From Dehalococcoidales bacterium (lineage in GTDB: Bacteria > Chloroflexota > Dehalococcoidia > Dehalococcoidales > BS750m-G39): 33,628 nucleotides of DNA. The notes under the pieces were generated by a model. The model was not told where the DNA came from. It saw only the letters and a program-made list of their open reading frames with translations, and searched no databases. Shown in pieces: positions 16,830 through 23,528 of the stretch. A program made the position numbers and the translations under genes. The DNA is taken from positions 1 through 33,628 of the forward strand of contig JALHSZ010000007.1 of the NCBI GenBank assembly GCA_022865485.1, written 5' to 3'. The first letter of the stretch is position 1. The number at the start of each line of letters is the position of its first letter.

Positions 16830-18647
16830 ATGAAACACAATAGGCTCTTCCGTATCCTGGTGGCGGCGGTTGTCCTTTCCCTGCTGATGGTAGCCATACC
16901 AGCCACGCCAGCCTTGGCGGCGGCGGTAACTATAACCTCTCCGGTCACGCCCAGCGGTCCCCCGGGGACGGTGGTAACGCTCAGTTGCTCGGGGTTCACT
17001 CCAAGCGTAACCTACACCGTTTCCTTCGGCGGGACGGCTATCACGACCGGTACCACCGGTACTAGCCCCTTCACCGCTAGCTTCACCGTTCCCACGAGCG
17101 TCAGAAACAACTATACGGTTACGGTAACAACAACTCCAGAAGGTGCTGTCCCGCTAACCGGCGGTTTTACCATAACGCCGGAGATAACCCTCACCTTTAC
17201 CACCCCGGCTCATGTCGGCGACACGGTTACCGTTGCCGGCACTGGCTTCGCCGCCACCGCTGGTATAACCGTCCTCTATGATGATGTCAGTAAAGGCACT
17301 ACTACTACCATTGCCAACGGCACCTTTACCGGTTTTACCTTCACCGTGCCAGATAGCGATAAAGGAAGCCACGCCGTAAAAGCCTGGGAAACCAGTGCCC
17401 ACTCTAATTATGACACCGAGAACATCACCATCTCGCCCAAGATAACCATCAACCCCACCTCGGGGTCTGTCGGCGATACGATTACCGTCACCGGTAATGG
17501 CTTTGACGACAGCTCGAGCATAACCATTTACTTCGACTCTGTCAGCCAGACCACTAGCAGCACCAATACCAACGGAACTTTCACCGCCGCCACCTTCGCC
17601 GTCCCCTCCACCTCACGGGGCACCCACACCGTAAAGGCCCAGGATGCCGGCAGTAATCAGGCCACGGCCACCTTCACCGTCTCCACCAAGATAACCATCA
17701 ACCCGACCAGCGGGCCTTCGGGCACCCCGGTCACCGTTACCGGCAGCGGCTTCGGCACCAGCCAGACCATAACCATCAAATATAACAACGCTCTCGTAAC
17801 TACCAATCCCCCGACGGTAACTACTGGCTCTACGGGCGGCTTCACCGCTACTTTTAGCGTGCCCGTCCTCGCCGCTGGGACCTACGAAGTGTCCGCGAGC
17901 GACGCCACCAGCACGGCGACGGCTAACTTCCAGTCCACCACCACCGCCACCATCAGCCAGACGACCACCACCTCCTCCCCCGGTTACGTCGGCATGGAGC
18001 TGACTATCACCGGCGTCGGCTTTACGCCCAGCCATGAGATAACCATCACCTTTGATGGTGGTGAGCTTGATATCAGTGGCGATAATAATACCGATGCCAG
18101 CGGCAACTTTGAGTGCAGCTTCATCGTTCCTGCTAAAGAAGGTGGAGAGGCTTACACCATAACCGTTACTGTTGGCACTATTACCAAGACCTTCGACTTC
18201 GTTATGGAGTCGAATCCTCCCCCGACCCCGGGGCTGACCCTGCCGCTGGCGGGTGAAAAGCTCAAGGATGGGACATTCACCTGGGAGGCTGTCGAGGATG
18301 CTGAGAACCCGGACATCCCGGTAACCTTTGACCTCCAGGTAGCCATTGACGCCGATTTCACCACCCCATTGGTGGATAAGACGGGGCTGACCACTTCGGC
18401 ATACACCCTCCTCGATGAAGAAAAGCTGGAGTCAACCGGCAAGGACGAGCCCTACTACTGGCATGTGAGAGCGGTGGATGCCGCCTCCAACGCCGGCGCT
18501 TGGTCTGAACCCAGCACTTTCACGGTCGGCTTCTCCTTCGAATTCACGGGCTGGGTGGTGTGGGTCATAATGGGGGCGATTGCCCTCGTGTTCTTTATCT
18601 TCGGGGTGTGGATCGGCAAGAGGAGCGGCGGCGGCGGATACTATTGA
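16830..18647 (+). CDS. Second IPT/TIG-like repeat surface protein, paralogue of 12420-14090
   Basis: 605 aa; near-identical N-terminus (MKHNRLFRIL..AVVLSLLMVAIPA.PA), repeated INPTSGSVGDTITVTGNGF units, same C-terminal fibronectin-like domain and TM tail (GVWIGKRSGGGGYY). Confidence 0.8.
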   Translation: MKHNRLFRILVAAVVLSLLMVAIPATPALAAAVTITSPVTPSGPPGTVVTLSCSGFTPSVTYTVSFGGTAITTGTTGTSPFTASFTVPTSVRNNYTVTVTTTPEGAVPLTGGFTITPEITLTFTTPAHVGDTVTVAGTGFAATAGITVLYDDVSKGTTTTIANGTFTGFTFTVPDSDKGSHAVKAWETSAHSNYDTENITISPKITINPTSGSVGDTITVTGNGFDDSSSITIYFDSVSQTTSSTNTNGTFTAATFAVPSTSRGTHTVKAQDAGSNQATATFTVSTKITINPTSGPSGTPVTVTGSGFGTSQTITIKYNNALVTTNPPTVTTGSTGGFTATFSVPVLAAGTYEVSASDATSTATANFQSTTTATISQTTTTSSPGYVGMELTITGVGFTPSHEITITFDGGELDISGDNNTDASGNFECSFIVPAKEGGEAYTITVTVGTITKTFDFVMESNPPPTPGLTLPLAGEKLKDGTFTWEAVEDAENPDIPVTFDLQVAIDADFTTPLVDKTGLTTSAYTLLDEEKLESTGKDEPYYWHVRAVDAASNAGAWSEPSTFTVGFSFEFTGWVVWVIMGAIALVFFIFGVWIGKRSGGGGYY

Positions 18648-18671
18648 TTTATAGCTAACCCTAAACCATAA

Positions 18672-18703
18672 AAAAGGGGGGGGTTAAGGCCCCCTTCTCT
18701 TTT
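18672..18703. terminator. G/C-stem hairpin between IPT and patatin genes
   Basis: A-tract, GGGGG..TTAAGG..CCCCC, TTCTCTTTT; bidirectional terminator candidate. Confidence 0.6.
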
Positions 18704-18710
18704 AGTGAGG

Positions 18711-19955
18711 CTATTCGGGGAAGGGCAAACGCCCCGGTTTGGCTCCCGGCTCCAGCACCCAGCGGCGCATGGCGGCGTCGGCGAGGGCGTAGCTCCAGTT
18801 GATTAACTGTTCCTGTTTCTCTTGGCTTAAGCCCATCAGGCGCGTGGATATCTTGCTCAGCTTCTCTGTCGTCTTGCTGTCCTTGAGCAGCGGGGGTGGG
18901 AGTTTTTCCTTCTCCTCCGTCGGTTCATAGTTCTTAATCTTGGTGTCTATGCCCCAGTAAGTGCCCCGCGCCTTCTTATCCTCGAAGTCGGCTATCGCCC
19001 ATCTCTTGCGCAGGCGGCGGGTCTGTTCGGTGATGGTGCTGTCAGCCCGCTTGAGGATTGAGAAGCGGTTCAGCCCCCGCCAGAACGTCCCTGCGTTCAC
19101 CGAAAACGGCGCCCCCGCGTCGCTCATCAGCACCGTGGAGTAGCGGTCCCAAATTCGCTCCAGCCCCAGGTTGTCGTAAACGCCCCCGTCGGTAAGGACC
19201 ATGGTCGAGAGGAGTTTCTTCTTCTGTGAACGGCTCAGAAGGTTGCCCTTTTTATCCTTTTTACTCTTTTTATCCCAGTCTTTCCACTCGGAGGGCTTGA
19301 ACCTGAGGATGACGGGCGCCATAAATATCGGGAAGGCGCTCGAGGCGGCGACGGCTTTGGCCAACTGAATATGTGGCGACTCAATCTTCTTATCCAGTTC
19401 ATAGTCAGCCAGGTAGGGGTGGGAGAACCGCACGCTGACGCCGGTCTGAAGGCTGGTGGCGTAAATGGTGAAGATGGGGTCCTTTCTACCATTGGGCAGG
19501 TCCTGGAGGGTGGCTTTGCCGAAGAGCTTTCGGCGGTAGGGCTGGGTCAGCCCGCAAAAAAAGCCTTCGCCCTCTATCCCGTGCGAGCAGAACTCCCGCA
19601 GCGGATTGACGACCTCCTCCACGAAATTGGTAGCGACCCCGTCCTCCCCAAACTTCAGCTTCTTCCATTGCAGCCCCAGCCAGCCCGCTGTAATCGAGCC
19701 CCCCGATACGCTGGTGACCTCGTCCAGCTTTTTAAGCCAGCCCAGCTCGTTAAGCCGCCAGAGGCTGCCCAGGTGGAAGACAGCCGCTCTGTAGCCGCCC
19801 CCCGACAGAGCTAGCCCCACGCCTTTAGTCCTCAACGGGGTTTCGCATTTGTGGCAACGTAGTTTGCCAAACGTTCTAACCGGGCTGGGATCAACCCTCT
19901 GGCACTTCACGCAGTAGTTTGTGCTGCGGTCTTCTTTGTAAAAGTCTTCTGCCAT
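18711..19955 (-). CDS. Patatin-like phospholipase with N-terminal zinc ribbon
   Basis: 414 aa; CVKC...CHKC, then GGGYRAA, SVSGGS (GxSxG) and DGG (TDGGVYDNLG). Confidence 0.85.
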   Translation of the reverse strand: MAEDFYKEDRSTNYCVKCQRVDPSPVRTFGKLRCHKCETPLRTKGVGLALSGGGYRAAVFHLGSLWRLNELGWLKKLDEVTSVSGGSITAGWLGLQWKKLKFGEDGVATNFVEEVVNPLREFCSHGIEGEGFFCGLTQPYRRKLFGKATLQDLPNGRKDPIFTIYATSLQTGVSVRFSHPYLADYELDKKIESPHIQLAKAVAASSAFPIFMAPVILRFKPSEWKDWDKKSKKDKKGNLLSRSQKKKLLSTMVLTDGGVYDNLGLERIWDRYSTVLMSDAGAPFSVNAGTFWRGLNRFSILKRADSTITEQTRRLRKRWAIADFEDKKARGTYWGIDTKIKNYEPTEEKEKLPPPLLKDSKTTEKLSKISTRLMGLSQEKQEQLINWSYALADAAMRRWVLEPGAKPGRLPFPE

Positions 19956-20174
19956 GGTTTGCTCCTTCGCGGGTTTGTCGGAGCTTTAGTGTAGTGCCCT
20001 ATTGAGGGAGTGTCAATACCATAAGATATAAAAGGGGAGGCTTTTTGCCCCCTCTTGTGGTTTCTTCTTTCCTCTCCCCTACCACCAGAGATTAAACGTT
20101 ACGTCAGATTGTTATTGCAAAGGGATGTATCCTTCCATAAAAATAACCTCTCTTACGAGAATGCTTGCACTAAT

Positions 20175-20203
20175 TTGCACAGTGCTTCCCTTTAGTGTAT
20201 ACT
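20175..20203 (+). promoter_or_regulatory. Promoter upstream of Zn-ribbon gene
   Basis: TTGCAC 20175-20180, 17-bp spacer, TATACT 20198-20203, overlapping palindrome TACTATATATAGTA. Confidence 0.5.
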
Positions 20204-20268
20204 ATATATAGTAGTTTCAGTTTAGGTTATTACAAACTTCTTTGAATCCCCAGAGATTTATTTTCGTA

Positions 20269-20318
20269 TTGGATGACCAGAGCTCTAACTAACATTCAGA
20301 AGAGAGGAGGTCATCCAA
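20269..20318 (+). promoter_or_regulatory. Leader hairpin sequestering SD/start of Zn-ribbon gene
   Basis: TTGGATGACC (20269-20278) and GGTCATCCAA (20309-20318) are perfect 10-bp complements; right arm covers end of GAGGAGG and A of ATG. Confidence 0.65.
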
Positions 20319-20506
20319 TGAGTTTTCAGGATAAGTCAATCCAATGTTCCGATTGTAGGACTACCTTTACTTTCAGCGCTGGAGAACAGGAGTTCTTCCA
20401 ATCTAAAGGCTTCACCAATGAGCCCAAGCGTTGTCCCTCATGCCGCCGCGCAAACAAAGCACAGCGTTCCGGCAGTGGCGACTACAGCTACAGTTCCAAG
20501 GAGTGA
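20318..20506 (+). CDS. Small zinc-ribbon domain protein
   Basis: MSFQDKSIQCSDCRTTFTFSAGEQEFFQSKGFTNEPKRCPSCRRANK: CxxC...CxxC; ATG at 20318 preceded by gaggagg. Confidence 0.85.
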   Translation: MSFQDKSIQCSDCRTTFTFSAGEQEFFQSKGFTNEPKRCPSCRRANKAQRSGSGDYSYSSKE

Positions 20507-20599
20507 ATGTTTTGTGCCTTCTACGCCCGGTGTAGGAAAAACACGTTCGACAAGAGTTCACATCTTTCGGAGAAATGTATAGCAAGAGGAGAATTCAAA

Positions 20600-20695
20600 G
20601 TGAGTATTCAAATGAAACTACGTACTCTATATAGCCTGTTAGCGATGGGCATTTTGGCACTAATTGCTGGTCTTACTCTCGTAGTTGTAATGTGA
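20600..20695 (+). CDS. Possible 31-aa single-pass membrane peptide
   Basis: GTG at 20600 with agaggaga 8 nt upstream; MSIQMKLRTLYSLLAMGILALIAGLTLVVVM. Confidence 0.35.
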   Translation: MSIQMKLRTLYSLLAMGILALIAGLTLVVVM

Positions 20696-20722
20696 AACCA
20701 TTCAATATGACCATTATACCCA

Positions 20723-20872
20723 CCCCATAAACATAAAAAAAAGAGGGGGCTAGCGCCCCCTCTTTGGTTTTGCTGATGCTATTTGGGGAAGGGCAGACGC
20801 CCCGGTTTACTCCTGCGCGGGTTTGTCGGAGCTTTGGTGTAGTTCGATATTGAGGGGGTGTCAATACCTATA
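20723..20872 (-). pseudogene. Remnant of a second patatin locus (3' end fused to 5' flank)
   Basis: Matches terminator and last codons (KPGRLPFP) of the 18711-19955 patatin gene fused directly to its upstream flank (gcgggtttgtcggagcttt.gtgtag). Confidence 0.75.
20743..20762. terminator. Hairpin terminator, core orientation A
   Basis: GAGGGGGC-TAGC-GCCCCCTC between A- and T-tracts. Confidence 0.7.
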
Positions 20873-20939
20873 ACTTTACGGGTTAGACCATTTGGTATTA
20901 ATATTGGGTTAAGGAAACGTTTTAGAGAAGGAGGGCTAA

Positions 20940-21704
20940 ATGGGTCGCGTCCAAGATAAAGTAGCCATCGTAACCGGCGCCGCCGGAGGTCTTGGTGGTG
21001 CCATATCACTGTTGTTGGCTAAGGAAGGGGCCAAAGTTGTCGTTACCGACATCAACGAGGCTGGCGGGAAGAAAACAGTCGAGGACATAAATCGTGAGGG
21101 GGGCAAGGCTGTCTTCATCAGGCACGATGTCGCCAGCGAAGGCGATTGGACCAAGGTAATCGAGAAGACCTTATCCGAGTTTGGCAAATTGGATATTCTG
21201 GTTAATAACGCTGGCATCATGTTTATCAAGGAGATTGAAAATACCTCGTTAGAAGAATGGCACCGGGTTATGAGCATCAATCTGGACGGCGTTTTCTTGG
21301 GTACGAAACACGCCATAGGGGCGATGAAAAAGAGCGGCGGCTGCATCGTTAATATGTCCTCCGCCGTCGGTATTGTAGGCAGACCTGATGATACGGCGGC
21401 TTATTGTACCAGCAAGGGCGCCGTAAGACTGTTTACCAAGGCAGCGGCTATGGAGTGCTCCAAAGCGGGCCATGACTATAAAATCCGGGTTAACTCCGTG
21501 CACCCCGGTGTTATCGAGACACCGATGACAGCGGGTATGGCTGAAGACCCTGAATTCCGGAAAATTCTGGAGGCTATGCACCCGATTGGTTTTCTGGGCA
21601 AACCGATAGATGTTGCTTATATTGTCCTTTACTTGGCTTCTGATGAGTCCCGGCTTGTCACCGGCGCTGAGTTTGTCGTCGATGGGGGCTGGACGGCGAG
21701 TTAG
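20940..21704 (+). CDS. SDR family NAD(P)-dependent oxidoreductase
   Basis: 254 aa; Rossmann motif TGAAGGLGGAI, NNAG, catalytic S..(Y)CTSK (AAYCTSKGAV), C-terminal GAEFVVDGGWTAS. Confidence 0.93.
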   Translation: MGRVQDKVAIVTGAAGGLGGAISLLLAKEGAKVVVTDINEAGGKKTVEDINREGGKAVFIRHDVASEGDWTKVIEKTLSEFGKLDILVNNAGIMFIKEIENTSLEEWHRVMSINLDGVFLGTKHAIGAMKKSGGCIVNMSSAVGIVGRPDDTAAYCTSKGAVRLFTKAAAMECSKAGHDYKIRVNSVHPGVIETPMTAGMAEDPEFRKILEAMHPIGFLGKPIDVAYIVLYLASDESRLVTGAEFVVDGGWTAS

Positions 21705-21751
21705 CTTTAGGGTAACCCCCCTTATCCCCCCACCCCATAAACATAAAAAGA

Positions 21752-21771
21752 GAGGGGGCGCTAGCCCCCTC
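21752..21771. terminator. Hairpin terminator, core orientation B
   Basis: GAGGGGGC-GCTA-GCCCCCTC; exact reverse complement of 20743-20762 within the same flanks. Confidence 0.75.
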
Positions 21772-21787
21772 TTTTGGTTTTACCCCC

Positions 21788-23212
21788 CTACTCCTCCCTC
21801 ACCCCACCCCGCGCCTCCCTCGCCTCGTACCTTTCGGCGGCTTCCACCAGCAGCGCCAGGCTCATGAGGAAGTCGTCGTGCCCCTCAGAGGGGCTGACAT
21901 AGAAATTAACGGTCAGTGACGGGCGGTAGTGGCACTTTGCCCTCTCCATCTCCTTCCAGAACTCCCTACACTCGTCTGAGCCGTCCCTGTCGTAAACCTT
22001 GAGCCGGCCCGAGTTGATTGCCGCCAGTAGCTTAAAGCCGAGCTCGGACTTGGCCTTAGCCGTGAAGGTAAAGGCGGACACCTTCGAGCCGAGCGCCTTC
22101 CTCAAAAACGAGCTTACCGGTTGGCCCAGACCGGTGGCGTCGACGACCACCCGACGGCATTTCCAGACACTTTTAAGGATATCCACCAGCCTGGGGTAAA
22201 GCTCGGCGTGCTTTCGGCCCGTCCAGCGGTAGTGCTCCACCACCCGTATTCGGGGCTGTTTCTGGATGTCGTCGCAGATAGAAAAATCGAGCTCGCCGAT
22301 GGTGACCACGGTGGAGTCCCGCTGCGGCTGGGGGTTGCTAAAATTGTCCCCCTCGGCTTCGCCGGCAAGGTCGATGCCGGCCAGGTAGATTTTACCCTTC
22401 TCGGCATGGCGTTTTCTCTCGTGCTCCCCGCTGAGCTGCGCCAGCTGCTGGCGGCTCAAGAAGCCCCCGCCCCCCTGTATGGGCAGCAGGCGGTACTGAG
22501 TCAAAAAGAGGGGGTGGTTTTCGCCCAATCGCTCCCTCTCCGCCTCGACATAGGCGCGGTAGTCGGGGTTATAGTCGGCTATCTCCTCCCAGTCGTATCT
22601 GAAGTGACGCTTTACCCCGTCCTGCCTCTCCAGCTCCAGGTTGGTCTGTTTGACCTCCTCCAGCAGGGTAGAGTCGTCCCAGGTGGTGCCGTAGTGGACG
22701 GTGGTGACGTTGGTCGTCGCCCCCATCGGCTTGAACTCCTTGCTGTACTTCTCCCGGCTCACGTCCTGCGCCTCGTCAATCTCGAGCAGGATATGGGCGG
22801 TGTTGCCCACCACGTTGGCCGACTTGTCGGCGGAGAGAAAGATGGCGCGGGCGTTGCCCAGCCGTATGATATAGCCCAGCTCCGCCGTCCAGATGCCGCT
22901 GAACCCCGCGTCGTTGAGCCGGTCCCTGAGCCGCATCATGGAGATGACCGTCTGCGGCTTAAAAGTAGGGGAGCACTTGACCAGGTTCTGGGGCTGGGTC
23001 ATGTGGAATGTTAAAAGCAGCAGCTCCAGCTGTGCCGATAGCTCGTTCTTGCCCCCCTGGCGGGCCATCTCCACCGAGAAGGTAAGCCCCTTCCTGCCTA
23101 GGACGCTATCCAGGATAGCCGAAGCCACCTCCCGCTGGTAGGGGCGCAATCTATTTAGTGACGATTTGTCCGATGCCCAGCCCCAGCGGGATGGCGATAT
23201 CCTTGAGGACAT
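21788..23212 (-). CDS. Phage terminase large subunit
   Basis: 474 aa; ATPase-like MARQGGKNE, Walker B HILLEIDEAQD, nuclease acidic motifs AGIDLAGE, VVDATGLGQPV, GHDDFLMSLAL; start may be downstream of 23212. Confidence 0.88.
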   Translation of the reverse strand: MSSRISPSRWGWASDKSSLNRLRPYQREVASAILDSVLGRKGLTFSVEMARQGGKNELSAQLELLLLTFHMTQPQNLVKCSPTFKPQTVISMMRLRDRLNDAGFSGIWTAELGYIIRLGNARAIFLSADKSANVVGNTAHILLEIDEAQDVSREKYSKEFKPMGATTNVTTVHYGTTWDDSTLLEEVKQTNLELERQDGVKRHFRYDWEEIADYNPDYRAYVEAERERLGENHPLFLTQYRLLPIQGGGGFLSRQQLAQLSGEHERKRHAEKGKIYLAGIDLAGEAEGDNFSNPQPQRDSTVVTIGELDFSICDDIQKQPRIRVVEHYRWTGRKHAELYPRLVDILKSVWKCRRVVVDATGLGQPVSSFLRKALGSKVSAFTFTAKAKSELGFKLLAAINSGRLKVYDRDGSDECREFWKEMERAKCHYRPSLTVNFYVSPSEGHDDFLMSLALLVEAAERYEAREARGGVREE

Positions 23213-23528
23213 TCTCGATTGCCTCCTTCAGTCCCTTCTTCTGCTCCTTGCTGATTTTGTACTTCGTCTTCACCAGGTTGGCCAGGGTGGTGGTGGCGTC
23301 CATAAGCAGCTTGATATTCTCGGGGTCGTTCTCCAGAAGGGACTTTATCTTAACCCTCAGCAGGGTAATCTCGTCGTCGAAGCCCTCGACGCCCGCCGCC
23401 AGCTCGAAATCGAGCAGCTCGGCTTCATCCAGCACCTTGGAATAGAAGCCATGGGTGCGGGCGTTCTGGTTACCCTTTGGGGCGCCTCTTTTTCGTTTGG
23501 CTCTTTCCGCCATCTGGTCTATCTCCAT
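23151..23528 (-). CDS. Terminase small subunit-like / phage-associated protein
   Basis: 125 aa; KRGAPKGNQNARTHGFYSKVLDEAE pattern typical of terminase-adjacent small proteins. Confidence 0.7.
   Translation of the reverse strand: MEIDQMAERAKRKRGAPKGNQNARTHGFYSKVLDEAELLDFELAAGVEGFDDEITLLRVKIKSLLENDPENIKLLMDATTTLANLVKTKYKISKEQKKGLKEAIENVLKDIAIPLGLGIGQIVTK

Follow-up and report, generated by a model that had tools for sequence, protein, structure and literature searches.

Remnant of a second patatin-like phospholipase gene in a Dehalococcoidales genome, probably left by a deletion between short direct repeats

The window analyzed here is the whole of a 33,628-nucleotide stretch of Dehalococcoidales contig JALHSZ010000007.1. 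The region of interest lies between the gene of a TIG-domain protein, which ends at position 18647, and the gene of the terminase large subunit (TerL, 21788). It contains an intact patatin-like phospholipase gene, a small zinc-ribbon gene (20318–20506), and a short-chain dehydrogenase (SDR) gene, as well as a set of terminators. Between the zinc-ribbon gene and the dehydrogenase gene, there is a short segment that resembles the patatin locus and is referred to below as the remnant. The features are as follows:

18670–18706: T1, terminator at the 3′ side of the intact patatin gene
18711–19955, minus strand: intact patatin-like phospholipase gene, 414 amino acids (Pfam PF01734, E 3.9e-15), single copy in its own genome
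18736–18746: GGTTTGGCTCC, the repeat close to the 3′ end of the intact patatin gene
19956–19965: GGTTTGCTCC, the repeat ahead of the start codon of the intact patatin gene
19956–20020, minus strand: promoter and leader of the intact gene (TTGACA-N17-TACACT, AAGGAG), only two copies in its own genome
20027–20065: T2, terminator; from 20027 on, homologous to G003 L134:774-312, directly downstream of the TIG gene of that relative
20738–20767, minus strand: T3, strong intrinsic terminator at the 3′ side of the remnant, of a local terminator family and close to T4
20768–20805, minus strand: putative 3′ end of a second patatin copy, matching 18700–18735 at 31/36 positions, with PGRLPFPK codons and a stop at 20779–20805
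20804–20813: single fused repeat at the putative deletion junction, GGTTTACTCC
20804–20868, minus strand: putative leader and promoter remnant (TTGACA-N17-TACACC, CAGGAG, no start codon), matching 19956–20020 at 58/65 positions
21730–21781: T4, terminator between the SDR and TerL genes, near-identical to T3; its counterpart in G001 is 89% identical over 65 nt

The 5′ flank of the intact gene carries, in order, TTGACA, a 17-nt spacer, TACACT, AAGGAG, and ATG; its promoter scores 10/12 in a promoter scan, and the encoded protein ends in PGRLPFPE. No patatin homologue was present in any of 100 relatives, and the viral contigs searched contained neither a patatin relative nor a match to the leader. 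In the paper library searched, no paper paired Dehalococcoidia with patatin. An association with defence was rejected since PADLOC gave no match for the gene.

Both ungapped repeat comparison and long-gap alignment match positions 20768–20868 to the two ends of the patatin locus (18700–18740 and 19956–20020), which are kept in the same order and orientation with the middle missing. GGTTT follows the left-hand match (20768–20803 to 18700–18735) in both copies, the right-hand match is gapless, and 1220 bp of the intact locus is absent between the two. The right-hand homology stops a little upstream of the −35 box, at 20868. When searched against the whole genome, the 5′ part yielded an E-value of 6.9e-19 and the 3′ part, terminator included, 7.6e-12; judged by these alignments, chance similarity is excluded. 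The first-pass annotation, which had described the segment as a patatin locus with its inside missing, is borne out by this two-ended match. The remnant and the intact locus are the only copies of these sequences in the 1.19-Mb assembly, so a genome-wide repeat or mobile element was rejected as their source. Outside its own genome, the leader had no match in a sample of 400 genomes from the phylum; a search of the 100 relatives for the remnant yielded nothing beyond two weak matches (21 and 31 nt).

Two parts of the earlier description need adjustment. It had assigned the A-tract and terminator to patatin as well, but the terminator part of the remnant (20720–20767) is closer to T4 (50/53 positions of 21730–21781) than to the patatin terminator T1 (38/46). 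Because terminators of the same type recur in the neighborhood and in relatives, this match is weak evidence and does not indicate derivation from patatin. The rest of the match holds: the 5′ flank aligns well past the terminator, and terminator similarity alone was rejected as the source of the match given how closely the leader aligns. As for the last codons, the patatin C terminus is indeed present, but it ends in lysine in the remnant and in glutamate in the intact protein.

Near-identical 10- to 11-nt repeats flank the intact gene, and the remnant has one copy. On its own, this pattern is also compatible with an insertion, in which case the remnant would be the original empty site and patatin would have entered at GGTTTNCTCC with target-site duplication. 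Homologues decide between the two readings. Those with 40 to 53% identity can be aligned as far as the C-terminal end, where several have LPFP-like motifs; some of the class members with 39 to 53% identity end in similar motifs, e.g., GAKPPGGLPFP, and the alignment with an Acidobacteria homologue (40%) reaches residue 414. Since distant homologues share this family C terminus, the codons to the left of the repeat derive from a patatin gene, which makes the remnant a deletion. Its right part corresponds to patatin's own promoter and ribosome-binding site, and neither part is expected in an empty site. The empty-site reading was rejected, as the sequence of the remnant is not independent of patatin, and we assign it a negligible probability. 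As judged from the homologues, the segment is what is left of a deleted gene rather than an insertion site that stayed empty.

At the junction, the homology consists of an imperfect repeat (10/11 nt) that includes 6 exact nucleotides, an exact length reached by 0.2% of random junctions in this window. A short direct repeat is present at both breakpoints, with one copy left, and all three lie where the first-pass annotation had placed them. In the right-hand patatin copy, the deletion would have removed ~1.22 kb, from just before the ATG through residue 406, i.e., nearly all of the open reading frame (ORF). It would have occurred between the leader repeat (GGAGC-AAACC on the minus strand) and the repeat in the last codons (GGAGCCAAACC). 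The leader now runs directly into CCGGGGCGTCTGCCCTTCCCCAAATAG, which contains the PGRLPFPK codons and the stop. The earlier claim that the entire ORF was deleted between short repeats agrees with the 10/11 repeat at the join and its single copy in the remnant. Only the promoter, the leader, eight codons, and the stop are retained, and the remnant cannot encode patatin. Overall, it is very probable that a second patatin locus existed here and that its ORF was deleted between short repeats, leaving a nonfunctional remnant.

The deletion was most likely caused by replication slippage or another short-homology event; of these, slippage in particular may have been responsible. A survey of variable segments in bacteria ascribes such events to replication slippage or short-homology–dependent illegitimate recombination and found that 10 to 18% of variable segments have flanking repeats of 5 bp or longer (PMC2884548). 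As in the surveyed cases, both ends of the deletion fall within repeats that reach 5 bp but stay under the ~30 bp required for RecA, and one repeat copy stays at the join. Unlike in those cases, nearly a whole ORF was removed, and the event was recognized from a paralogue that this genome still carries and not by strain comparison.

The remnant keeps a TTGACA box, the 17-nt spacing, and a strong terminator, features that would be compatible with its retention as a short RNA (promoter, leader, 3′ end, and terminator) that, as a decoy, would divert regulators from the mRNA of the intact patatin gene. Its folding z-score is −3.6, apparently mainly due to the terminator hairpin. Against such a role, the −10 box (TACACC compared to TACACT in the intact copy) lacks the final T, and the remnant fails the promoter scan that the intact promoter passes. 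There is no Rfam match above threshold; the subthreshold match to sraA (E 0.26, 27 bits compared to a gathering score of 56) was taken as chance, and a known RNA family was rejected. The remnant is also not conserved in relatives. We therefore regard a retained RNA as highly improbable. With its −10 box damaged, no ATG, and CAGGAG where the intact copy has AAGGAG, the remnant is most likely nonfunctional.

The content of the TIG-TerL interval varies among relatives that share both of its sides. In G001, which belongs to the same genus, the interval contains several unrelated small genes; in the family member G006, it looks, from translations, as though a cyclase-like hydrolase and a leucine-rich repeat protein are encoded there. 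In G003, the TIG gene is closely followed by the counterpart of window positions 20027–20498 (T2 and the zinc-ribbon gene), while in the window, the patatin unit lies between T2 and the conserved TAGCTAACC that follows the TIG gene. Compared with the TIG-T2 adjacency of G003, the position of the intact copy is thus derived: as far as gene order tells, the intact patatin gene interrupts a conserved TIG-protein/terminator/zinc-ribbon junction. T2 is probably the ancestral terminator of the TIG protein, now cut off from its gene by the patatin unit. On the other side, the conservation that the leader of the short-chain dehydrogenase gene shows in G007 stops at about 20885. Throughout 18647–21788, units are separated by similar terminators, and the cargo is different in each relative. 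A tentative and rather doubtful generalization is that the interval works as a cassette-like hotspot: single genes, each with the same type of terminator at one end, would be gained, copied, and lost there via terminator similarity and short homologies, the remnant being one footprint.

Relatives of the zinc-ribbon gene in G007 and G010 (90 to 92% identity) form tandem pairs. In G003, the corresponding gene is longer and has an additional zinc ribbon; the copy in the window may therefore be a truncated form.

Two patatin loci in the same orientation would once have flanked the zinc-ribbon gene in this gene-turnover hotspot. From the remnant, we infer that they arose by duplication in this lineage and not by a second acquisition. 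If two alleles had instead been acquired separately as xenologues, with one ORF then lost by the same short-homology deletion, the data would fit nearly as well. The interval's cargo differs in each relative, and patatin is missing from the 100 relatives, so it was either acquired from outside or widely lost. The divergence between the remnant and the intact copy (~11 to 14% over ~100 nt, too short for dating or dN/dS) is compatible with different donors. Against separate acquisition, the two copies share unit, right end, and orientation, no other sampled genome yielded the leader, and duplication requires fewer events. We consider separate acquisition unlikely. Among 393 genomes of the class, none had two intact patatin copies, and no genome with the remnant alone was found; the arrangement occurred in 0 of the 100 relatives, whereas its presence in outgroups that lack patatin was what the first-pass annotation had named as speaking against its reading.

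Under duplication, the order of events can be proposed as follows. In an economical path, patatin would originally have adjoined the dehydrogenase gene, and the segment from T2 to the patatin promoter would have been tandemly duplicated via a few bases in common (ACC). Two losses would have followed: that of the first zinc-ribbon copy, between terminators that resemble each other, and that of the second patatin ORF, between the short repeats. It is just as possible that the patatin unit was copied directly into the TIG-T2 junction. A choice between the paths cannot be based on the terminators because T3 is closer to T4 than to T1.

Like a pseudogene of a duplicated gene, as generally understood, the locus has one intact copy and another reduced to its ends; unlike such a pseudogene, it has too little left, and protein-based pseudogene finders would miss it. 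The remnant reflects an ordinary, known process of gene loss whose footprint is unusually well preserved, and general understanding of that process is unchanged. It provides a very readable trace of how, in a small genome, an accessory gene is copied and a copy is then removed by a short-homology deletion. It also indicates that remnants with almost no coding sequence are detectable from a promoter and a tail.

At the end of the interval, the genes of the large and small terminase subunits (21788–23528, minus strand) adjoin CT398-like and RNase H genes, an order conserved in relatives of the same genus and the same order. TerL is 93% identical in G001, 61% in G018, and 82% in the same-family G006, whose contig ends there. 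No other phage genes were recognized near the terminase genes, and the cluster suggests a domesticated terminase or a gene-transfer-agent core rather than a prophage.
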